DNA from: a virus
Length of the DNA: 23,091 bases
Reading direction: 5' to 3' (one strand)
IMG/VR virus record: IMGVR_UViG_3300005436_000039
Span: 1-23,091 of that record
Below the pieces are notes generated by a model, which saw only the letters and a program-made list of their open reading frames with translations, did not search any database and was not told the DNA's origin. Of this stretch, positions 4,176-13,741 are shown one piece after another. The translations under genes and the position numbers were made by a program. Position 1 is the stretch's first letter; every line of letters starts with the position of its first letter.

Positions 4176-4362
4176 GCTCCATCTGCACTAGGTCCCAGGC
4201 GATTTCAGCGTAGCCGATATCCGGCTCGCTGAGCCATAGGCGGGCCTGCGCCATCCACTGGTTCTTGTTACCGTGGTAGGCTGCGAAACCATCTCTAGCC
4301 CTAGCGTACCACAGTCCCCCTGGACTGTCAAGGGGGAAATCATCCTCAAGCAAGGATGTCAT
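4159..4362 (-). CDS. Small hypothetical protein (67 aa)
   Basis: The ATG at 4362 has GAGAGGA eight bases upstream; the longer ATG at 4380 has no ribosome site. The product begins MTSLLEDDFPLDSPGGLWYA and is Trp- and acid-rich, with an amphipathic C-terminus (GYAEIAWDLVQMEHDAQA). It overlaps the end of the TOPRIM gene by 17 bases and the next gene by 17 bases. The coding sequence contains the TTGACA-N17-TACGCT promoter-like element. Function unknown. Confidence 0.55.
   Translation of the reverse strand: MTSLLEDDFPLDSPGGLWYARARDGFAAYHGNKNQWMAQARLWLSEPDIGYAEIAWDLVQMEHDAQA
4303..4331 (-). promoter_or_regulatory. Promoter-like element, intragenic, with spacer dyad
   Basis: CTTGACA, a 17-base spacer ending TGG, then TACGCT (leftward). 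It fits the host-type -35/-10 consensus with an extended TGn. ACAGTCC and GGACTGT form an inverted repeat over the -35 and spacer, a possible operator. It lies inside the 67-residue gene, co-directional with it. Confidence 0.45.
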
Positions 4363-4990
4363 GAAAGTAGTCCTCTCCATACAGGAGGAACGAGCTGTTT
4401 ACGTCCTCCTTTTCGTCCATCTGCGCGATTTCGACCGAGCGCGGGAAGAGCCCCGACCACGTCGTGGCAAAGCCTGCACCAGCGTTATCTCCATCGGCGA
4501 AGACAACAATTCTGTTGAAGTCCTCGAAGAGGCGACGGTAGTGCGGCTTCCAAGTTCCGGATCCCGGAAAACCAACAGTGGGATAGCCCAGTTGACGGAG
4601 AATGAGACGGTCCATTTCTCCCTCAGTGACGCAAATTGCGGAGCCCGCGTCGATAAGGTCCTCAACACCATAGATCCGAGAGCGCTGGCCAGTTCGGGTG
4701 AGGTACTTACCACATCCCTCTGCCTTGCAATCGTGGTCCCGAATGCATCGGTAACGGAGATCGACAACTCCAGACCGTGTGATGTAGGGGATGCTGAGAT
4801 AATTACCTGCTGTTGCAAGGTTCGGCCACTCTTCTAGCTGTTCATCGACTACGCCGAGGCGAGCCATATCGGCTGTTTCCTCGGTAATTCCTCGCCCCAC
4901 CAGATAGTCGGCTGCCGCCTCTAGATTGGCGTGGAACCTCTCCGTCTGGTTCTCCAGCGAGCTCCTTTGCAAGGGCGTAAGCTTCTGCAA
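4346..4990 (-). CDS. DNA primase, TOPRIM catalytic part
   Basis: A 214-residue protein from a TTG with GGGAGG eight bases upstream. The N-terminal helical linker RFHANLEAAADYLVGRGITE is typical of DnaG/phage primases ahead of the TOPRIM fold. The TOPRIM motifs are AICVTEGEMDRLIL (the conserved Glu) and IVVFADGDNAG (the DxD metal site). CKAEGCGKYL may bind zinc. It should synthesise RNA primers with the DnaB-like ATPase encoded upstream. The zinc-binding domain is in a separate overlapping ORF (4842-5210) in another frame. A +1 shift would join them, but the TTG with a good ribosome site also allows separate translation. Confidence 0.8.
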   Translation of the reverse strand: MQKLTPLQRSSLENQTERFHANLEAAADYLVGRGITEETADMARLGVVDEQLEEWPNLATAGNYLSIPYITRSGVVDLRYRCIRDHDCKAEGCGKYLTRTGQRSRIYGVEDLIDAGSAICVTEGEMDRLILRQLGYPTVGFPGSGTWKPHYRRLFEDFNRIVVFADGDNAGAGFATTWSGLFPRSVEIAQMDEKEDVNSSFLLYGEDYFHDILA

Positions 4991-5210
4991 AGTCCATACC
5001 TCCCTGCCTTACTAGAAGGCCCACGGCGTCCCCACGGACGCCACATTCACCAGACATGCACTTGAAATAGTAGTCGTTGTGCCACGCCGAAGGATTCTCA
5101 TCGGTGTGGAAGGGGCATCTCATCTTGGACCTGTTGGCGTCCACTCTTGCGTTGAAATGCCCCTCTAGCACGGGAATGATCTTAAAGCGGGCCTCCTGGC
5201 CCTCAGGCAC
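4842..5210 (-). CDS. DNA primase, CHC2-type zinc-finger part
   Basis: A 122-residue ORF from GTG 5210 (GAGG upstream, overlapping the previous stop). The motif MRCPFHTDENPSAWHNDY followed by FKCMSGECGVRGD gives Cys32, His35, Cys50 and Cys55, the template-binding zinc ribbon of DnaG-type primases. DFAEAYALAKELAG follows as expected. After that the frame degenerates to an Arg/Ser/Gly-rich tail (SRGGSRLSGGARN) while the TOPRIM continues in the overlapping frame. The tail may be real, or the primase may be made by frameshifting. Split primases in two overlapping ORFs are known from other actinophages. Confidence 0.75.
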   Translation of the reverse strand: MPEGQEARFKIIPVLEGHFNARVDANRSKMRCPFHTDENPSAWHNDYYFKCMSGECGVRGDAVGLLVRQGGMDFAEAYALAKELAGEPDGEVPRQSRGGSRLSGGARNYRGNSRYGSPRRSR

Positions 5211-8232: not shown

Positions 8233-10011
8233 ATGAGATACCTCGCTAACGGCAGTATCCGTGTCCCTGAGGACACAGCGGACCTGGTCGTGATGCTAGA
8301 GTGGATCGATCGCCAGCACACGCTGGCGCTTGACACTGAGACCACCGGTCTCGACATCTACTCTGATGATCACCGTATCCGCTTGATCGCGTTGGCTACG
8401 CCCAACGAAGCTTGGGTCTTCCCCGCAGAGAGGATGTGGAGTAGCGCTTTCAGAGTAACCGAGCGCTTGCGCGGCAAGCGTTTGATCATGCACAATGCAC
8501 CATACGACATCCCGGTGCTCGCCAGGCACGGCCTGGCTGACATCGAACGGATGTTTGCACAGACACGTGACACGAAGAATATGGCCCATCAGGTCGATCC
8601 TCGTGGACGTGATGAAGGTGGCATCGGCCAGTCGCTAGATGAGCTGGTCAAGCATTACATGCCCGAGTACAGCAAGCTCGGGGATGATCTCAAGGACGAG
8701 TTCAAGAGGCTGAAGGACCGGGGAGTCATCCCTAAGTCTACACCCATGTCCATGATGTGGGTCGTGATGCCTCTTGACAACGAAGTCTATAACGTGTATG
8801 CTGGTACTGACGCCATGCTCACCGCTCGACTCTTCAAGATCCTCAAGAAGAAGATCGATGTGAACAGTGAGCTCACACAGGCGGACAACAAGACTGCCAT
8901 GATCGCATCCCTCATGGATGCGAAGGGCTTCCTGCTTGATCGTGAGTACACCACTGAGCTGCGCAACACGCTGCTCAGAGATGAGCAGAAGTGGAAGAAT
9001 CGTGCATACGAGCACGGTCTTGAGAACATCAACTCGCCCCAGCAAGTTGCAGAGGCACTTGAGCGCATTGGCCTGGTCCCTAAGGAAAAGACCCCCAAGG
9101 GCAATCCGAAAGTTGACAAGGTCTTCCTGGGGCAGCACACTGATGTGCCCCTTGTGCAAGCAATCGTAGAAGGAAAGAAGGCTGGCAAGTGGAGAACGAC
9201 TTGGGTGGAGAAGTTTCTTGGAGCAGCAGACTCCGCTGGAAGAGTTCACCCCTCAACGAATACGCTACGTGCCCGCACTGCGAGGTTTTCGATTACTGGG
9301 ATTCCAGCGCAGACGCTCCCCTCTTCCGATTCGGTGGTACGTTCGTGCTTTGTAGCGGACACCGGAGAGATCATTGTTGGAGTTGACTATGCCCAGCAGG
9401 AGCTAAGGCTCACTGCTGCGTACGCCAAGGATCCACGTATGATCAAGGCGTTCAAGAACGGCGAAGATCTTCACTACATCACGGCTGAGACTGCCTGGCC
9501 TGGCCGTGGCATGGAGATGCGCAAGTACGGCAAGGGTGGAAACTTCGGCACCGTCTACGGTGCGAAGGAACGTGCACTTATGGATCAGTTCAACATGACC
9601 TATGACCAGGCTCGTAAGGTCATTCAGGCCATCCGCAAGGCGTACCCTGGCATTCAGCGGCTCTCTGACGCGCTAGCGGATGAGGCCACACGCTACGGCT
9701 ACATCACCACAGACTACGGTCGCAAGCTACCTGTGGACGACCACAGGCTGTATGCAGCTCTGAACTATAAGATTCAGAGCACGGGTCGTGACGTGACTGC
9801 TCAGGCCATGCATCGTCTGTACGATGCTGGCTACGTAGACTACATGCGCCTAGCCATCCACGATGAGCTCTTGTTCAGTCTGCCACAGGGTGAGCCGGAG
9901 CTAGTTGTAGAGATCGAACGGATCATGTCTACGAGTGTCGGCAGGGTAGAGATCCCTGCTGAAGCCAAGATCGGTGGCCGAGCTTGGGGCTCCCTGTACC
10001 CGGGGGGTTGA
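8233..10011 (+). CDS. Family A DNA polymerase with 3'-5' exonuclease domain
   Basis: 592 residues from ATG 8233; the longer frame from 8197 is excluded because it begins inside the promoter. The exonuclease part has LALDTETTGLD (DxE), LIMHNAPYDIPVL and YAGTDAMLTARL. The polymerase part has motif A VGVDYAQQELRLTAAYAKD, motif B MRKYGKGGNFGTVYGAKE and motif C LAIHDELLFSLP, all with catalytic residues present. No 5'-3' exonuclease domain is present, as usual for phage enzymes. It copies the phage genome with the primase and helicase encoded divergently. A promoter-like TTGACA-N17-TATGCT occurs inside it at 8774-8802. Confidence 0.95.
   Translation: MRYLANGSIRVPEDTADLVVMLEWIDRQHTLALDTETTGLDIYSDDHRIRLIALATPNEAWVFPAERMWSSAFRVTERLRGKRLIMHNAPYDIPVLARHGLADIERMFAQTRDTKNMAHQVDPRGRDEGGIGQSLDELVKHYMPEYSKLGDDLKDEFKRLKDRGVIPKSTPMSMMWVVMPLDNEVYNVYAGTDAMLTARLFKILKKKIDVNSELTQADNKTAMIASLMDAKGFLLDREYTTELRNTLLRDEQKWKNRAYEHGLENINSPQQVAEALERIGLVPKEKTPKGNPKVDKVFLGQHTDVPLVQAIVEGKKAGKWRTTWVEKFLGAADSAGRVHPSTNTLRARTARFSITGIPAQTLPSSDSVVRSCFVADTGEIIVGVDYAQQELRLTAAYAKDPRMIKAFKNGEDLHYITAETAWPGRGMEMRKYGKGGNFGTVYGAKERALMDQFNMTYDQARKVIQAIRKAYPGIQRLSDALADEATRYGYITTDYGRKLPVDDHRLYAALNYKIQSTGRDVTAQAMHRLYDAGYVDYMRLAIHDELLFSLPQGEPELVVEIERIMSTSVGRVEIPAEAKIGGRAWGSLYPGG
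8774..8802 (+). promoter_or_regulatory. Intragenic promoter-like element in polymerase gene
   Basis: CTTGACA, 17 bases, TATGCT, co-directional. It falls near the third exonuclease motif, where the protein sequence is constrained, so it may be fortuitous. Confidence 0.3.
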
Positions 10012-10036
10012 CAAGAAGCCCTGGGTGTGCTACAGT
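10008..10036 (+). promoter_or_regulatory. Promoter of the tRNA / cysteine-rich operon
   Basis: TTGACA, 17 bases ending TGC (extended -10), TACAGT. The -35 overlaps the polymerase stop codon. Start of transcription is expected near 10043, about 40 bases before the first tRNA. No other consensus promoter is seen before the terminator at 13711. Confidence 0.75.
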
Positions 10037-10080: not shown

Positions 10081-10160
10081 AGCGGAGTAGGGGAGTTCGG
10101 TCGTCCCCGTCAGTCTCATAAACTGAAGATCGTGGGTTCAAATCCCACCTGCCGCTACCA
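10081..10160 (+). tRNA. tRNA-Met(CAT)
   Basis: Cloverleaf with anticodon loop CTCATAA and T-loop TTCAAAT. The only tRNA in the array with an encoded 3' CCA (10158-10160). The anticodon stem TCAGT/ACTGA lacks the three G-C pairs of an initiator, so elongator Met is likely; a lysidine-modified Ile tRNA cannot be excluded. One acceptor mismatch (A6/G67). Confidence 0.85.
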
Positions 10161-10161
10161 A

Positions 10162-10238
10162 GTCGGTCAAGCTCATCCGGACGGTCCGGAGGGCGCCTGC
10201 AAAGCGCCTAGCCAGCAGTTCAAGTCTGCTGACCGATT
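10162..10238 (+). tRNA. tRNA-Cys(GCA)
   Basis: Acceptor GTCGGTC/GACCGAT, anticodon arm GGCGC-CTGCAAA-GCGCC, T-loop TTCAAGT. The D-arm is unusually large and contains TCCGGACGGTCCGGA. A cysteine tRNA is fitting in an operon that encodes cysteine-rich proteins. Confidence 0.75.
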
Positions 10239-10240
10239 TT

Positions 10241-10311
10241 CGATTCTTAGCTCAGGGGTAGAGCATCCGGTTGAAGCCCGGAATACGGTGGTTCGATTCC
10301 ATCAGGATCGG
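10241..10311 (+). tRNA. tRNA-Phe(GAA)
   Basis: Acceptor CGATTCT/AGGATCG, anticodon arm TCCGG-TTGAAGC-CCGGA, T-loop TTCGATT. All stems pair. Confidence 0.85.
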
Positions 10312-10329
10312 CGTAACAGGCAGAGCAAT

Positions 10330-10393
10330 CGCTGCTGACAGGCTCGTTCAGAGCCGGGATGCCAAACCCCGGGGACCTGTCAGACGGCCAGCG
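10330..10393 (+). ncRNA. Three-way-junction RNA element 1 (not a tRNA)
   Basis: A perfect helix CTGACAGG (10335-10342) with CCTGTCAG (10376-10383) encloses two hairpins: GGCTC-GTTCA-GAGCC and CGGG-ATGCCAAAC-CCCG. The helix extends by CGCTG/CAGCG across a 5-base bulge. No T-loop signature and no seven-base anticodon loop with T33, so it is not a tRNA. It resembles in plan the element at 11093-11152. Confidence 0.5.
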
Positions 10394-10420
10394 ACCACAG
10401 GGAGTCGGCAACTGTTGGAC

Positions 10421-10442
10421 CAGTCCTAACCGGGCTGGACTG
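10421..10442 (+). other. Hairpin in tRNA array spacer
   Basis: CAGTCC and GGACTG pair around a 10-base loop. It lies in the 187-base stretch without tRNAs between Phe and Pro, which otherwise holds the two structured elements on either side. Confidence 0.4.
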
Positions 10443-10451
10443 TTTGTGAAC

Positions 10452-10495
10452 TATAGCAACCTGCTAGAGCGACTTCTCAGGTAGGCTCTGCTATA
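10452..10495 (+). ncRNA. Structured RNA element, possible pseudoknot
   Basis: TATAGCA and TGCTATA form a 7-bp outer helix. Inside, ACCTG can pair with CAGGT, and AGAGC with GCTCT, in interleaved order, so a pseudoknot or two competing folds are possible. No T-loop or anticodon arm is present. It ends 3 bases before tRNA-Pro. Confidence 0.4.
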
Positions 10496-10498
10496 CAA

Positions 10499-10572
10499 CT
10501 GGATGTGGCCTAGTGGACTAGGGCGCCTGATTTGGGATCAGGAGAACGTGAGTTCGAATCTCACCTTCCGGA
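10499..10572 (+). tRNA. tRNA-Pro(TGG)
   Basis: Anticodon arm CCTGA-TTTGGGA-TCAGG, T-arm GTGAG-TTCGAAT-CTCAC. Acceptor CTGGATG/CTTCCGG has one T-T mismatch at 6-67. Confidence 0.8.
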
Positions 10573-10576
10573 CAAT

Positions 10577-10649
10577 GTGAACGTAGCTTAATTGGTAAAG
10601 CAGCAGTCTCCAAAACTGTTAGATGAAGGTTCGAATCCTTCCGGTCGCG
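10577..10649 (+). tRNA. tRNA-Trp(CCA)
   Basis: Anticodon arm GCAGT-CTCCAAA-ACTGT, T-arm GAAGG-TTCGAAT-CCTTC. Acceptor GTGAACG/CGGTCGC has one mismatch (A5/G68). Confidence 0.85.
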
Positions 10650-10652
10650 CTT

Positions 10653-10736
10653 GGTAAGGTCCGCCGATTGGCACCGGCAGCTCCCTGCTAAGGAGTAAGG
10701 GTAACACCTTTGCGAGTTCGACTCTCGCTCTTACCG
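10653..10736 (+). tRNA. tRNA-Ser(GCT)
   Basis: Acceptor GGTAAGG/TCTTACC, anticodon loop CTGCTAA, long class II variable arm (AAGGGTAACACCTTT), T-arm GCGAG-TTCGACT-CTCGC. Canonical serine type. Confidence 0.85.
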
Positions 10737-10737
10737 C

Positions 10738-10769
10738 ACTGTTCCTACACAGTCGTCCTGGGTATGACG
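10738..10769 (+). other. Two small hairpins between the serine tRNAs
   Basis: ACTGT-TCCTAC-ACAGT and CGTC-N8-GACG in the 47-base gap between the two serine tRNAs. Probably processing spacers. Confidence 0.35.
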
Positions 10770-10783
10770 TTAAACTGCTACAT

Positions 10784-10865
10784 GGAAGCTATGGCTAATG
10801 GTGGCCAACTGTCTAGAAAACAGCGAGGGGTAACACCCTAGAGGGTTCGATTCCTTCAGTTTCCG
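10784..10865 (+). tRNA. tRNA-Ser(AGA)
   Basis: Acceptor GGAAGCT/AGTTTCC, anticodon loop CTAGAAA (anticodon AGA), long variable arm GGGGTAACACCC, T-loop TTCGATT. A34 is unusual for a bacterial serine tRNA and would need deamination to inosine for wide decoding. The 27-43 pair is a mismatch. Confidence 0.75.
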
Positions 10866-10866
10866 C

Positions 10867-10938
10867 GCCATCATAGTATAACGGCAATTATTACTGCCTT
10901 CCAAGCAGAGGATGTCGGTTCGATTCCGACTGGTGGTT
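10867..10938 (+). tRNA. tRNA-Gly(TCC)
   Basis: Acceptor GCCATCA/TGGTGGT, anticodon arm CTGC-CTTCCAA-GCAG, T-arm GTCGG-TTCGATT-CCGAC, discriminator T as usual for glycine. Confidence 0.85.
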
Positions 10939-10940
10939 CC

Positions 10941-11011
10941 GCCTCTATAACATAGTGGTAATGTAGATGACTCTTAATCATCGAAGCTAGGTTCGATTCC
11001 TAGTGGGGGCA
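10941..11011 (+). tRNA. tRNA-Lys(CTT)
   Basis: Acceptor GCCTCTA/TGGGGGC, anticodon arm GATGA-CTCTTAA-TCATC, T-arm CTAGG-TTCGATT-CCTAG. All stems pair. Confidence 0.88.
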
Positions 11012-11015
11012 CTTT

Positions 11016-11088
11016 ACCCTTGTAGTTCAACGGACAGAACAGCGCGTTTCTACCGCGTAGGTTGAGGGTTCGAGTCCTTCCAAGGGTG
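11016..11088 (+). tRNA. tRNA-Arg(TCT)
   Basis: Acceptor ACCCTTG/CAAGGGT perfect, anticodon arm GCGCG-TTTCTAC-CGCGT, T-arm GAGGG-TTCGAGT-CCTTC. Reads AGA/AGG codons, typically rare in GC-rich actinobacteria. Confidence 0.88.
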
Positions 11089-11092
11089 CTAG

Positions 11093-11152
11093 TTACGACG
11101 CTACCTAAGACCCCCCGGTACTGGCTGTGGGTCAAATGTCAGCCCGTCGTAA
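11093..11152 (+). ncRNA. Three-way-junction RNA element 2 (not a tRNA)
   Basis: TTACGACG (11093-11100) pairs perfectly with CGTCGTAA (11145-11152). Inside are two hairpins: TACC...GGTA with a C-rich loop, and GGCTG...CAGCC. There is no T-loop and no anticodon arm. It occupies a tRNA-sized slot between Arg(TCT) and Asn(GTT). Confidence 0.5.
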
Positions 11153-11157
11153 CACAA

Positions 11158-11230
11158 TGGTCTGTAGCCTAACCGGTAAGGCACCATCCTGTTAAGTTGG
11201 TGAATGCAGGTTCGAATCCTGCCAGATCAG
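11158..11230 (+). tRNA. tRNA-Asn(GTT)
   Basis: Acceptor TGGTCTG/CAGATCA, anticodon loop CTGTTAA in stem CCATC/GTTGG (one T-T mismatch), T-arm GCAGG-TTCGAAT-CCTGC. Confidence 0.85.
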
Positions 11231-11234
11231 CAAT

Positions 11235-11309
11235 GCTTCAGTAACCCAATATGGTAGAGGTGCCGACCTCAAGAGTCGGAAGATGTGAGTTCGAGTCTCA
11301 CCTGAAGTA
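11235..11309 (+). tRNA. tRNA-Leu(CAA), short variable loop
   Basis: Acceptor GCTTCAG/CTGAAGT, anticodon arm CCGAC-CTCAAGA-GTCGG, T-arm GTGAG-TTCGAGT-CTCAC. The variable region is 5 bases (AAGAT), while bacterial leucine tRNAs normally have a long class II arm. The anticodon supports Leu; identity could differ in practice. Confidence 0.75.
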
Positions 11310-11313
11310 CTTA

Positions 11314-11386
11314 CGGACGTTAGCTTAGTGGTAAGAGCGCTACCCTGTCAAGGTAGTAGGCGCGGGTTCGACTCCCGTACGTCTGA
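11314..11386 (+). tRNA. tRNA-Asp(GTC)
   Basis: Acceptor CGGACGT/ACGTCTG, anticodon arm CTACC-CTGTCAA-GGTAG, T-loop TTCGACT. All stems pair. Confidence 0.88.
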
Positions 11387-11392
11387 CGCAAT

Positions 11393-11466
11393 GGTCCATT
11401 GGTGTAGCCAGGTAGCATATCTGACTCTCAATCAGAAGGTCGCCGGTTCAAATCCGGCATGGACTA
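11393..11466 (+). tRNA. tRNA-Glu(CTC)
   Basis: Acceptor GGTCCAT/ATGGACT, anticodon arm TCTGA-CTCTCAA-TCAGA, T-arm GCCGG-TTCAAAT-CCGGC. Confidence 0.88.
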
Positions 11467-11470
11467 CGTG

Positions 11471-11517
11471 CGGAGCCTGATCAGCTCCGAACTGCATACG
11501 ACGTCATGACTCGTATG
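11471..11517 (+). other. Twin hairpins in tRNA array
   Basis: CGGAGC-CTGATCA-GCTCCG (6-bp stem, 7-base loop) followed by CATACGA-N9-TCGTATG (7-bp stem). No tRNA features. They directly precede the tRNA-like relic. Confidence 0.45.
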
Positions 11518-11587
11518 AGTGGTATAGTGTAGTGAGTAGCACCCCGCCGCGAAGGCGGTAGAGTCAGTGCAAATCTGGCTGCCACGC
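11518..11587 (+). pseudogene. tRNA-like sequence without a usable anticodon
   Basis: Acceptor-like AGTGGTA/TGCCACG and T-arm-like GTCAG-TGCAAAT-CTGGC frame a middle arm CCGCC-GCGAA-GGCGG. This arm closes with a 5-base loop, leaving no seven-base anticodon loop and no T33. TGCAAAT replaces the TTCAAAT T-loop. Either a decayed tRNA (alanine is the only amino acid missing from the array) or a tRNA mimic. Confidence 0.45.
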
Positions 11588-11591
11588 TCAT

Positions 11592-11665
11592 CTCCATGTA
11601 GCTTAGTTGGTTAAAGCCCTCGTCTGATAAGCGAGAGATCGAAGGTTCAAGTCCTTCTGTGGAGA
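11592..11665 (+). tRNA. tRNA-Ile(GAT)
   Basis: Acceptor CTCCATG/TGTGGAG, anticodon arm CTCGT-CTGATAA-GCGAG, T-arm GAAGG-TTCAAGT-CCTTC. Confidence 0.88.
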
Positions 11666-11669
11666 CCTT

Positions 11670-11741
11670 GCCCTGCTAGCTCAATGGCTAGAGCTTCTGT
11701 TTAGTAATCAGATGATCGGGGTTCGACTCCTCGGCGGGGAT
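11670..11741 (+). tRNA. tRNA-Thr(AGT)
   Basis: Anticodon loop TTAGTAA in stem TCTGT/TCAGA (one T-T mismatch), T-arm CGGGG-TTCGACT-CCTCG, acceptor GCCCTGC/GCGGGGA with a G-A mismatch at 1-72. Second A34 tRNA besides Ser(AGA); unusual for threonine in bacteria. Confidence 0.7.
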
Positions 11742-11753
11742 CTTATTAACACC

Positions 11754-11768
11754 CGTGGCTTCGGCCAC
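11754..11768 (+). other. UUCG tetraloop hairpin spacer
   Basis: GTGGC-TTCGG-CCAC type stem capped by a TTCG tetraloop between Thr and Val tRNAs; likely a stabilising spacer or processing element. Confidence 0.4.
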
Positions 11769-11771
11769 TAT

Positions 11772-11843
11772 GCACTCATAGCTCAATGGGAGAGCAACTG
11801 CCCTACAAGCAGAAGGTTCAAGGTTCAAATCCTTGTGGGTGTA
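11772..11843 (+). tRNA. tRNA-Val(TAC), C33
   Basis: Acceptor GCACTCA/TGGGTGT, anticodon arm CTGC-CCTACAA-GCAG, T-arm CAAGG-TTCAAAT-CCTTG. Position 33 is C rather than the near-universal T, so decoding activity is uncertain. Confidence 0.7.
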
Positions 11844-11876
11844 CGAGTCCGGCCCTGCTATATGCTGGTCCGGCAT

Positions 11877-11949
11877 ACCTCTATAGCTCAGTGGATAGAG
11901 CAGCGGGCTACGAACCCGCGTGCCGGGAGTTCGAATCTCTCTAGAGGTG
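11877..11949 (+). tRNA. tRNA-Arg(ACG)
   Basis: Acceptor ACCTCTA/TAGAGGT perfect, anticodon arm GCGGG-CTACGAA-CCCGC, T-arm GGGAG-TTCGAAT-CTCTC. ACG is the standard bacterial A34 arginine anticodon. Confidence 0.9.
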
Positions 11950-11955
11950 CAGAAG

Positions 11956-12010
11956 CTAGGTCCAAGTTCGATAGCTGCTTTAAAAACTTCAAAACTTGGC
12001 ACTTGCCTAG
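11956..12010 (+). ncRNA. Long two-part hairpin between Arg and Gln tRNAs
   Basis: CTAGG (11956-11960) pairs with CCTAG (12006-12010), and CCAAGTT (11962-11968) with AACTTGG (11993-11999), around a 24-base A/T-rich loop. Further downstream GTCGG-GGCA-CCGAC can form a small hairpin. No tRNA signature in the 99 bases between the tRNAs. Confidence 0.4.
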
Positions 12011-12048
12011 GGTGAAGCTGGGTCGGGGCACCGACGCTTTGGTGCAAT

Positions 12049-12119
12049 TCTCCGCTGGTGTAATGGCAGCACGAATGGCTCTGAACCATTCGGTCGGGGT
12101 TCGAATCCTTGGTGGAGAG
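12049..12119 (+). tRNA. tRNA-Gln(CTG)
   Basis: Acceptor TCTCCGC/GTGGAGA, anticodon arm AATGG-CTCTGAA-CCATT, T-loop TTCGAAT. The T1-A72 pair is typical of glutamine tRNAs. Confidence 0.88.
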
Positions 12120-12123
12120 CAAT

Positions 12124-12195
12124 GGGTAGTTAGTTCAATGGCCAGAACCCTTGAATGTGACTCAAGAGAACTAAGTTCAATTCTTAGACTACCCT
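12124..12195 (+). tRNA. tRNA-His(GTG)
   Basis: Acceptor GGGTAGT/ACTACCC perfect, anticodon arm CTTGA-ATGTGAC-TCAAG, T-arm CTAAG-TTCAATT-CTTAG. Base -1 and base 73 are both T, so the usual G-1:C73 identity pair is not encoded. Confidence 0.82.
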
Positions 12196-12197
12196 CC

Positions 12198-12269
12198 GGG
12201 CGGTACGCTACAAGGTGTACATGGGGCCTGTAAAGCCCTCTCAGGCTGGTTCGATTCCAGCACCGACCC
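12198..12269 (+). tRNA. tRNA-Tyr(GTA), short variable loop
   Basis: Anticodon arm GGGC-CTGTAAA-GCCC, T-arm GCTGG-TTCGATT-CCAGC, acceptor GGGCGGT/ACCGACC with one mismatch. The variable loop is 5 bases, whereas bacterial tyrosine tRNAs are normally class II. The D-arm is irregular. Confidence 0.72.
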
Positions 12270-12271
12270 AC

Positions 12272-12346
12272 GGACGTATAGCCCAAATGGTAGGAGGCAA
12301 CTGCCTTAGAAGCAGTTCAGTGTGGGTTCGAATCCCTCTACGTCTA
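12272..12346 (+). tRNA. tRNA-Leu(TAG), short variable loop
   Basis: Acceptor GGACGTA/TACGTCT, anticodon arm ACTGC-CTTAGAA-GCAGT, T-loop TTCGAAT. Anticodon TAG reads CTA-type leucine codons. The variable loop is again 5 bases. Last tRNA; 28 bases later the cysteine-rich genes begin. Confidence 0.78.
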
Positions 12347-12374
12347 CGTAATGTAACCAACCCTTGGAGTGCCA

Positions 12375-12533
12375 ATGGGAAACCATTCTGCACCGCATGA
12401 CTCCGCACATTGCGGAGACGCCAACACCTGTGGCTGTTTTTCCTGTAACTCCTGTGCGGATAACAGAGGCCACTGTGGTAAGATCGGATGGGGCTGTCAC
12501 TTCTACTGCTCCTACCCGGGGCGTGGACAGTGA
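12375..12533 (+). CDS. Cysteine-rich microprotein A
   Basis: 52 residues, first of ten tandem paralogues. GGAG lies five bases before the ATG. Eight cysteines follow the family order: HC-x5-CGC-FS-C-NS-C, then HC-x6-CHFYC near the C-terminus. Histidines next to the last two cysteine groups suggest zinc or another soft metal. It has no signal peptide, so it probably acts in the cytoplasm, where disulfides are unlikely. This copy has the longest N-terminus (MGNHSAPHDSAH) and lacks the HCxxH histidine. The stop overlaps the GTG of the next copy (GTGA). Function unknown. Confidence 0.8.
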   Translation: MGNHSAPHDSAHCGDANTCGCFSCNSCADNRGHCGKIGWGCHFYCSYPGRGQ

Positions 12534-12658
12534 GATGCTATGACAGTGGGTTCTGTGTTTGTACCTGTGGTCCTTGCCTTGATGCTGTCAGGGGCGTTGA
12601 AGACGCCCGCCACTGCTGCGTTCACAAGAACGCCTGTCATAAGGCGTGTGCAATGTGA
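12530..12658 (+). CDS. Cysteine-rich microprotein B
   Basis: 42 residues from a GTG overlapping the stop of copy A by four bases. Pattern: RC-x5-CVCTC-GP-C, then HCCVH and CHKAC. It has one extra cysteine next to the HC motif. A competing ATG frame at 12540 would give a hydrophobic, signal-like peptide, but only this frame preserves the family motif. The stop overlaps the next GTG. Confidence 0.75.
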   Translation: MRCYDSGFCVCTCGPCLDAVRGVEDARHCCVHKNACHKACAM

Positions 12659-12771
12659 GTAAGTGTACAACCTTCGGTTGCTCGTGTTCGTGCAACTGGT
12701 GCAAGTCCGAACAGGACTACGCACACTGCCAGTACCATTCTCAGGGCTGCCATAAGGGGTGCCACTTCTAA
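12655..12771 (+). CDS. Cysteine-rich microprotein C
   Basis: 38 residues from GTG (GTGA overlap): MSKC-x4-CSCSC-NW-C, then HCQYHSQGCHKGC. It is one of the shortest copies and shows the core motif with almost nothing else, so it is a good minimal model of the family. Stop and next start overlap as TAATG. Confidence 0.8.
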   Translation: MSKCTTFGCSCSCNWCKSEQDYAHCQYHSQGCHKGCHF

Positions 12772-12908
12772 TGCCCAAGGATATTGAAGGTTGCCCGAAG
12801 GCACTCGAATGCGAGTGCCGTGCATGTGTCGGCTGTCGAGCCGACTTGACCACCATGGGCCACTGCTGGAATCACAGCAATGGCTGCCATCTAGGATGTG
12901 CCAAGTGA
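12771..12908 (+). CDS. Cysteine-rich microprotein D
   Basis: 45 residues from ATG (TAATG overlap). Pattern: GC-x5-CEC-RA-C-VG-C, then GHCWNHSNGCHLGC. The tail HCxxHSxGCHxxC is nearly the same as in copies C and J, showing shared ancestry although the rest differs. Next gene begins inside its stop (GTGA). Confidence 0.8.
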   Translation: MPKDIEGCPKALECECRACVGCRADLTTMGHCWNHSNGCHLGCAK

Positions 12909-13045
12909 GTCAAAGTATCAAGGGATGTGCAGAGCCCGGACAGTGTGACTGTGACAACTGCTATAACGGGATCTGCAACATGACCGGACCTTCGTGGCAT
13001 TGTAATGACCACGACTCCTACTGTCATATGGGGTGCTCAGGATGA
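12905..13045 (+). CDS. Cysteine-rich microprotein E
   Basis: 46 residues from GTG 12905; the frame is open further upstream to 12791, but that part overlaps copy D and lacks the motif. Pattern: GC-x5-CDC-DN-C, an extra cysteine in GIC, then WHCNDHDSYCHMGC. Stop overlaps the next start as ATGA. Confidence 0.8.
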   Translation: MSQSIKGCAEPGQCDCDNCYNGICNMTGPSWHCNDHDSYCHMGCSG

Positions 13046-13179
13046 GCCACGATCCTAACAACTGTCCCAAGGCAAAGAACTGCTACTGCTCTGGCTGCTT
13101 CACTGGTCAGTGCCGCAGCGGAAACTACATGCACTGTCAGGAGCCCGTCTACCGTGATTGTCATGTGGAGTGTAACTAG
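13042..13179 (+). CDS. Cysteine-rich microprotein F
   Basis: 45 residues from ATG (ATGA overlap). Pattern: NC-x5-CYC-SG-C, an extra cysteine (GQC), then HC-x7-CHVEC. The distance between HC and CH is one residue longer than usual and the HCxxH histidine is missing. TAGTG links it to the next gene. Confidence 0.78.
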   Translation: MSHDPNNCPKAKNCYCSGCFTGQCRSGNYMHCQEPVYRDCHVECN

Positions 13180-13310
13180 TGTGCCAGTGGCAGAATCGAT
13201 GCTTCTGTGATGATTGCCTTGATGATAAGCACACTGTCGGCTGGAACCGACATTGCAATCGTCACTCAAATAACTGCCACATGGAATGTGGCGAGGACTA
13301 TACTCTCTAG
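13179..13310 (+). CDS. Cysteine-rich microprotein G
   Basis: 43 residues from GTG within TAGTG. Pattern: MC-x5-CFC-DD-C, then RHCNRHSNNCHMEC and an acidic tail (GEDYTL). The first cysteine is residue 2, so there is no N-terminal extension. Downstream gap of 8 bases contains the ribosome site for copy H. Confidence 0.78.
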   Translation: MCQWQNRCFCDDCLDDKHTVGWNRHCNRHSNNCHMECGEDYTL

Positions 13311-13318
13311 GAGAGCCC

Positions 13319-13435
13319 ATGGCTAGTTGTTTGCCTTGGACCTGTTTTTGCAACTGCACCACCTGTAAGAAGGGTGAGCATCGGGCTCACACCTTCTGTA
13401 CCCACAATAGCGGATGTCACTGGGAGTGCAACTAA
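13319..13435 (+). CDS. Cysteine-rich microprotein H
   Basis: 38 residues from ATG with AGGAGAG five bases upstream, one of the best ribosome sites in the cassette. Pattern: SC-x4-CFCNC-TT-C, then FCTHNSGCHWEC. Phe replaces the His before the fifth cysteine and the spacing is one residue shorter. TAATG links to the next copy. Confidence 0.8.
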   Translation: MASCLPWTCFCNCTTCKKGEHRAHTFCTHNSGCHWECN

Positions 13436-13575
13436 TGCCTAGAGGATGCCAGTTCGCGAACACCTGCTGGTGCCCGGGAACGGGCCGCTATTGTAGCGAC
13501 TGCCAGAGTACAAACCCCGCGTTTAAGCACTGCTATGACCACTATGAAGGTTGTCACTTGAACTGCACGAGTTAG
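13435..13575 (+). CDS. Cysteine-rich microprotein I
   Basis: 46 residues from ATG (TAATG overlap). Pattern: GC-x5-CWC, a longer insert (PGTGRY), C-SD-C, then KHCYDHYEGCHLNC. The insert is after the CxC pair, showing that this loop tolerates length change. Six bases separate its stop from the next ATG. Confidence 0.8.
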   Translation: MPRGCQFANTCWCPGTGRYCSDCQSTNPAFKHCYDHYEGCHLNCTS

Positions 13576-13581
13576 GTAGAT

Positions 13582-13701
13582 ATGTCAAAGCATTGTGGCA
13601 GAGCACAGAACTGTGACTGCGATGGGTCTTGTATGCAGGGATGCACCACTGTCCACTGCTACAGCCACTCTAGCGGCTGTCACCTGACCTGTGACCCCTA
13701 A
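13582..13701 (+). CDS. Cysteine-rich microprotein J
   Basis: 39 residues, last copy, ATG preceded by TAGGTAGA. Pattern: HC-x5-CDC-DGS-C, an extra cysteine (GC), then VHCYSHSSGCHLTC. The terminator follows 9 bases after the stop, so the cassette ends here. Confidence 0.8.
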   Translation: MSKHCGRAQNCDCDGSCMQGCTTVHCYSHSSGCHLTCDP

Positions 13702-13710
13702 ACAAAAGTA

Positions 13711-13741
13711 AGCCCCCCTCTTTCGAGGGGGGCTATTTTTT
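13711..13741. terminator. Strong intrinsic terminator, bidirectional
   Basis: AGCCCCCCTC-TTTC-GAGGGGGGCT, a perfect 10-bp stem, followed by ATTTTTT on the rightward strand. On the leftward strand a shorter T-run (ACTTTTG) follows. It closes the tRNA/cysteine-rich unit and also faces the end of the leftward late genes, sharing bases with the stop codon at 13740. Confidence 0.9.

Follow-up and report, generated by a model that had tools for sequence, protein, structure and literature searches.

A tandem array of ten cysteine- and histidine-rich microproteins in an uncultured phage and the undescribed, multicopy viral family to which it belongs

Introduction

Ten consecutive genes for cysteine-rich proteins of 38–52 residues, lying directly downstream of a phage tRNA array, raise the question of what these proteins are and what they might do for the virus. 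We addressed this question on a stretch of 23,091 nucleotides, hereafter referred to as the window, which is the virus record IMGVR_UViG_3300005436_000039, from a soil virus. An initial annotation of the array (12375–13701) had proposed that it arose by repeated duplication with divergence around a constant metal-binding core, and had listed metal buffering, adaptors directed at host targets or defences, and nucleic-acid-binding zinc knuckles as possible roles.

Results

The DNA polymerase I of the window shares about 47% identity with mycobacteriophage enzymes, the helicase, primase and exonuclease all have matches among phage families, and a 695-residue protein is 33% identical to its counterpart in Streptomyces phages of the Beephvirinae, which are by this protein the nearest isolates. 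From the Beephvirinae-like protein, together with the matches of the phage replication genes, we infer an actinomycete host. The Beephvirinae phages Immanuel3, Olicious and FlowerPower resemble the window in their replication, tail and lysis genes and in having an array of 21–22 tRNAs; unlike the window, Olicious and FlowerPower do not encode any member of the microprotein family. The window primase (4346–5210, minus strand) is split over two overlapping ORFs, one with the TOPRIM part and another, upstream, whose cysteines resemble those of a zinc finger, an arrangement comparable to that of genes 58/59 of the Streptomyces phage Olicious.

ARAGORN detected 21 tRNAs on the plus strand (10081–12347), the last ending 27 bp before the first microprotein gene. 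A promoter-like site, TTGACA-17-TACAGT (10008–10036, plus strand; a consensus match only), lies upstream of the tRNA array, and a hairpin with a 10-bp stem including 8 GC pairs, followed by a T-rich stretch, lies at the end of the microprotein array (13711–13734, plus strand), in agreement with the strong terminator previously proposed there; this hairpin is terminator-like on both strands. The tRNA array and the microprotein array are probably one transcription unit. The tRNA array includes Ser and Thr tRNAs whose A34 anticodons (AGA and AGT, respectively) are unusual; such anticodons are implied in Beephvirinae isolates as well. No tRNA-Cys is found among its 21 members, though the genes that follow encode about 18% Cys. 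An additional tRNA-Gly called by ARAGORN on the minus strand (13227–13317) was discarded as false: it overlaps the seventh microprotein gene and was not confirmed by Rfam.

All ten ORFs were confirmed on the plus strand. Microprotein 1 (12375–12533; 52 aa; CGDANTCGC...HCGKIGWGCHFYC) is overlapped by 4 bp by microprotein 2 (12530–12658; 42 aa), which starts with GTG, as do microproteins 3 (12655–12771; 38 aa), 5 (12905–13045; 46 aa) and 7 (13179–13310; 43 aa); the array is completed by microproteins 4 (12771–12908; 45 aa), 6 (13042–13179; 45 aa), 8 (13319–13435; 38 aa), 9 (13435–13575; 46 aa) and 10 (13582–13701; 39 aa). Exactly as annotated, C-x4,5-C-x-C and C-H-x2-C both occur in ten out of ten proteins and HCxxH in seven, so that the motif common to the whole array reads C-x4,5-C-x-C...C-x5-7-C-H-x2-C; the spacing from the cysteine to the CH pair is 6 residues in eight copies, 7 in copy 6 (an HCxxP variant) and 5 in copy 8. 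A further near-invariant cysteine (C22), located shortly after CxC, had been overlooked. With regard to the junctions, the annotated 4-base overlaps (four) and gaps (two, of 8 and 6 bases) were found, but the remaining three junctions are 1-base overlaps (TAATG/TAGTG). The starts, ATG or GTG, are preceded by short GGAG/AAGG-like sites, several of which fall within the codons of the CHxxC end of the preceding gene, and the best anti-SD match averages 4.0 at these starts, compared to 2.5 at random positions.

Because the first motif cysteine is located at residues 2–13, the array proteins have no room for a signal peptide, consistent with what had been noted previously. This bears on the idea that such small, Cys-rich, tandemly encoded proteins are precursors of modified peptides or secreted disulfide-rich peptides. 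Considering the lack of a leader or signal peptide, the conserved histidine adjoining a cysteine, the copies scattered among ordinary genes in some viruses, and the fact that inspection of ORFs close to the array revealed no recognisable maturation enzyme, we regard this idea as very improbable.

A six-frame search for the motif returned ten matches in the array region and none in the rest of the window, and no match was obtained in 1000 dinucleotide-preserving shuffles of the array region. These shuffles, together with the selection pattern among orthologues described below, led us to reject a chance or artefactual origin of the array.

Two related viruses, G015 and L056, whose polymerases are 63% and 67% identical to that of the window, carry 8 and 6 copies, respectively, compared to 10 in the window. 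The three arrays contain common paralogue types in a conserved order, with gains and losses. Specifically, a protein tree of the copies, built from few columns, groups with strong support W1 with G015_1, W5 with L056_4, W4 with G015_3 and L056_3, W8 with G015_7 and L056_5, and G015_8 with L056_6 (W, window); microprotein 1 has an orthologue in G015, and microproteins 4, 5 and 8 have orthologues in both viruses.

Over 15 orthologue comparisons, not all of them independent, pN at Cys and His codons was 0.048 with synonymous change saturated, which bears out the suspected selection on the cysteines; at the other codons, pN was 0.24 versus a pS of 0.61 (JC dN/dS about 0.2). Examples are copy 7, which is identical to its G015 orthologue at 42 of 42 residues with six synonymous and no non-synonymous differences, and copy 8, whose orthologues are about 93% identical despite many synonymous changes (dN/dS about 0.05–0.07). 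This pattern supports translation of the array ORFs, which these substitution data identify as real genes evolving under purifying selection, and shows that the loops are constrained copy by copy. Therefore, the earlier description of the loops as freely varying holds between paralogues but not within them: judging from these alignments, the loop typical of a given paralogue is retained in phages that have diverged from one another. Such conservation makes copy-specific partners more plausible relative to metal buffering by interchangeable copies, although selection on the loops could instead reflect folding or the tuning of metal affinity.

A near-full-length relative of 44,969 bp (G028), with a polymerase 68% identical to that of the window, has no copy at all, which shows that the module is dispensable; copy number per virus ranges from 0 to 10.

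We then extended the analysis to other viruses. A DNA pattern for HCxxHxxGCHxxC matched 47 stretches in IMG/VR, many of which proved to be true full-motif homologues by regular-expression and profile analysis. Full-motif homologues are present in more than 20 IMG/VR contigs, with 1–10 copies each, including unrelated viruses of 80–166 kb and 46–68% GC; the paired motifs are thus kept outside the window, as the duplication-and-divergence proposal implied. Searching whole virus records with the profile gave matches in 17 out of 31, with eight in a 166-kb virus and seven in a 116-kb virus, and a survey at a looser threshold, in which a few contigs are near-duplicates, counted 90 copies over 24 contigs. 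Among 73 members, C.C is present in 72, HC in 71, HC..H in 64 and C-x5-7-CH-x2-C in 72; 48 contain eight cysteines, most carry 3–4 histidines, and the median core length is 36 residues. The pattern CxC...HC-x5-7-CH-x2-C is therefore kept across unrelated viruses and is under purifying selection, and the array proteins belong to a previously undescribed family. This family is multicopy and dispensable, and it occurs widely among uncultured tailed phages.

Several arrangements differ from that of the window. In another soil phage contig (L025:2471–6822), eight copies are interspersed with ordinary genes and with seven tRNAs arranged in the same order as in the 116-kb virus in L027, while the 166-kb virus (G001, in L292:1268–9967) has about 40 tRNAs in one array with one microprotein copy inside. 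A shorter relative, CxCxCxxC...HC-x4-7-C, lacks the final CHxxC and is sometimes tandem; in L057:5187–5587 and L036:3614–3868, tandem six-Cys forms (CxCxCxxC...HC-x5-GC) lie beside tRNA arrays.

The vicinity of tRNA genes is relevant to the possibility that the proteins are RNA- or tRNA-binding zinc knuckles, protecting or assisting the phage tRNAs encoded upstream. Every cluster in the lineage of the window adjoins a tRNA array, and single copies lie in or beside tRNA arrays in four unrelated viruses (G001, G002, G008 and L025). However, beyond the lineage of the window, most of the copies that large genomes carry are 40–120 kb from any tRNA (G001, G002), so there is no clear general tRNA enrichment, and the Streptomyces relatives with 21–22 tRNAs have no copy; we therefore discarded a tRNA function as a general explanation. 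As for the nucleic-acid-binding knuckles suggested initially, the knuckle spacing CX2CX4HX4C differs from the motif of all ten copies, and, rather than a basic surface, the members have a net charge near zero that is not conserved (mean 0.3, range −5 to +9). Overall, we consider an RNA- or tRNA-binding role quite unlikely. The neighbourhoods also bear on virion-packaged or structural metal proteins and on regulators of phage transcription, since some single copies adjoin terminase or lysin genes; with no consistent neighbour, a dispensable module and extreme paralogue diversity, these roles appear improbable.

In line with the statement that no such phage system had been described, array proteins and family gave no significant HMM match in Pfam, NCBIfam and PHROGs, the family profile had no match among PDB sequences, and a literature search, incomplete in its coverage, did not turn up any published phage family with such a form. 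Phage isolates gave no convincing match (hits only at E 0.2–10; the two examined, MT836650 and XacN1, failed the profile check), nor did plasmids. No family match was found in profile scans of 1,174 cellular genomes sampled from three phyla, carried out without a cellular positive control and with the same profile that does find the virus copies; in a pattern scan of cellular genomes, the matches listed were mostly due to chance. Weak family-like single ORFs appeared in two Saccharibacteria MAGs (L162:1489–1623, E 0.0007; L130:6588–6704, E 0.011), which could be viral or chance, and a weak single match appeared in a gammaproteobacterial MAG. A cellular origin of the family was set aside, as these weak MAG matches are not backed by the profile scans.

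Discussion

All together, these data point to an accessory set of putative metal-binding microproteins. Eight cysteines and 3–4 histidines in a median of 36 residues are denser than in ordinary zinc fingers, and metal binding by the array proteins is strongly implied by their sequences. Based on this ligand density, each protein would be cytosolic and fold around a compact thiolate/imidazole cluster of several metal ions, most likely zinc, with C-x4,5-C-x-C-(x-C)-x2-C and HC-x2-H-x3-CH-x2-C as ligands; the two AlphaFold predictions were of low confidence (pLDDT 58 and 55).

The explanation we tentatively prefer, giving it somewhat less than an even chance, is that the copies have specific targets in host takeover or counter-defence. 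The cluster would be a scaffold common to all copies, and partner binding would fall to the loop that separates the motifs, with a different partner for each copy, as suggested by the copy-specific constraint on the loops and by copy turnover. Coupled translation of the ten copies from a single mRNA, which probably also carries the upstream tRNA array, would provide at once a panel of small host-directed adaptors, single copies being gained and lost by phages as hosts change. No defence or anti-defence gene was recognised beside the array, and PADLOC profiles gave no match. A more specific version, in which a phage-restricted scaffold of about 36 residues is used in up to ten copies, each loop neutralising or redirecting a different host protein, is more doubtful; if true, 1.3 kb of DNA would encode a combinatorial counter-defence kit.

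The main rival of copy-specific adaptors is a metallothionein-like role, in which the proteins would be small buffers made at high dose to store or withhold zinc or copper, or to protect from metal or redox stress. The conserved cluster is compatible with this role too: the proteins appear cytosolic, their dosage is tandem, a six-Cys mini form exists, and 11–12 Cys and His candidates in about 36 residues are typical, as in bacterial metallothioneins, in which about as many Cys/His ligands coordinate 3–4 Zn (PMC7387436, PMC10612145). Nevertheless, no member matches Pfam, which includes a bacterial metallothionein family, and the profile has no match in the PDB; no metal-responsive regulator gene was recognised beside the array; and paralogue-specific loops kept in fixed order over saturated synonymous divergence would be unexpected for interchangeable buffers. 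Hence, we consider a buffer rather unlikely.

The array introduces a microprotein family that none of the searched libraries contains, and selection on its individual paralogues is directly documented. Should the copies act on different host targets, the array would amount to a compact collection of natural inhibitors; should they buffer metal, it would exemplify metallothionein-like proteins encoded by phages.

Among known systems, SmtA, itself of zinc-finger-like fold, and the PflQ2 metallothionein are likewise tiny, cytosolic and Cys/His-rich, and their metal ligands, histidine included, are about as many as those predicted for the array proteins. The array proteins differ from them in their spacing (CxCxCxxC...HCxxHxxxCHxxC), shorter length, lack of a sequence match in Pfam or PDB and occurrence as multi-paralogue phage arrays. 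RING, LIM and MYND domains and zinc knuckles also combine paired Cys/His ligands with variable loops able to carry specificity, but they place 8 ligands in 40–70 residues, whereas the array family usually has 11–12 in about 36 and shows no profile match to these binuclear zinc-finger microdomains. Finally, anti-CRISPRs and T4 Stp-type peptides are, like the array proteins, small, accessory and clustered, with copies that vary between close phages; unlike the array family, they usually have no common metal core.
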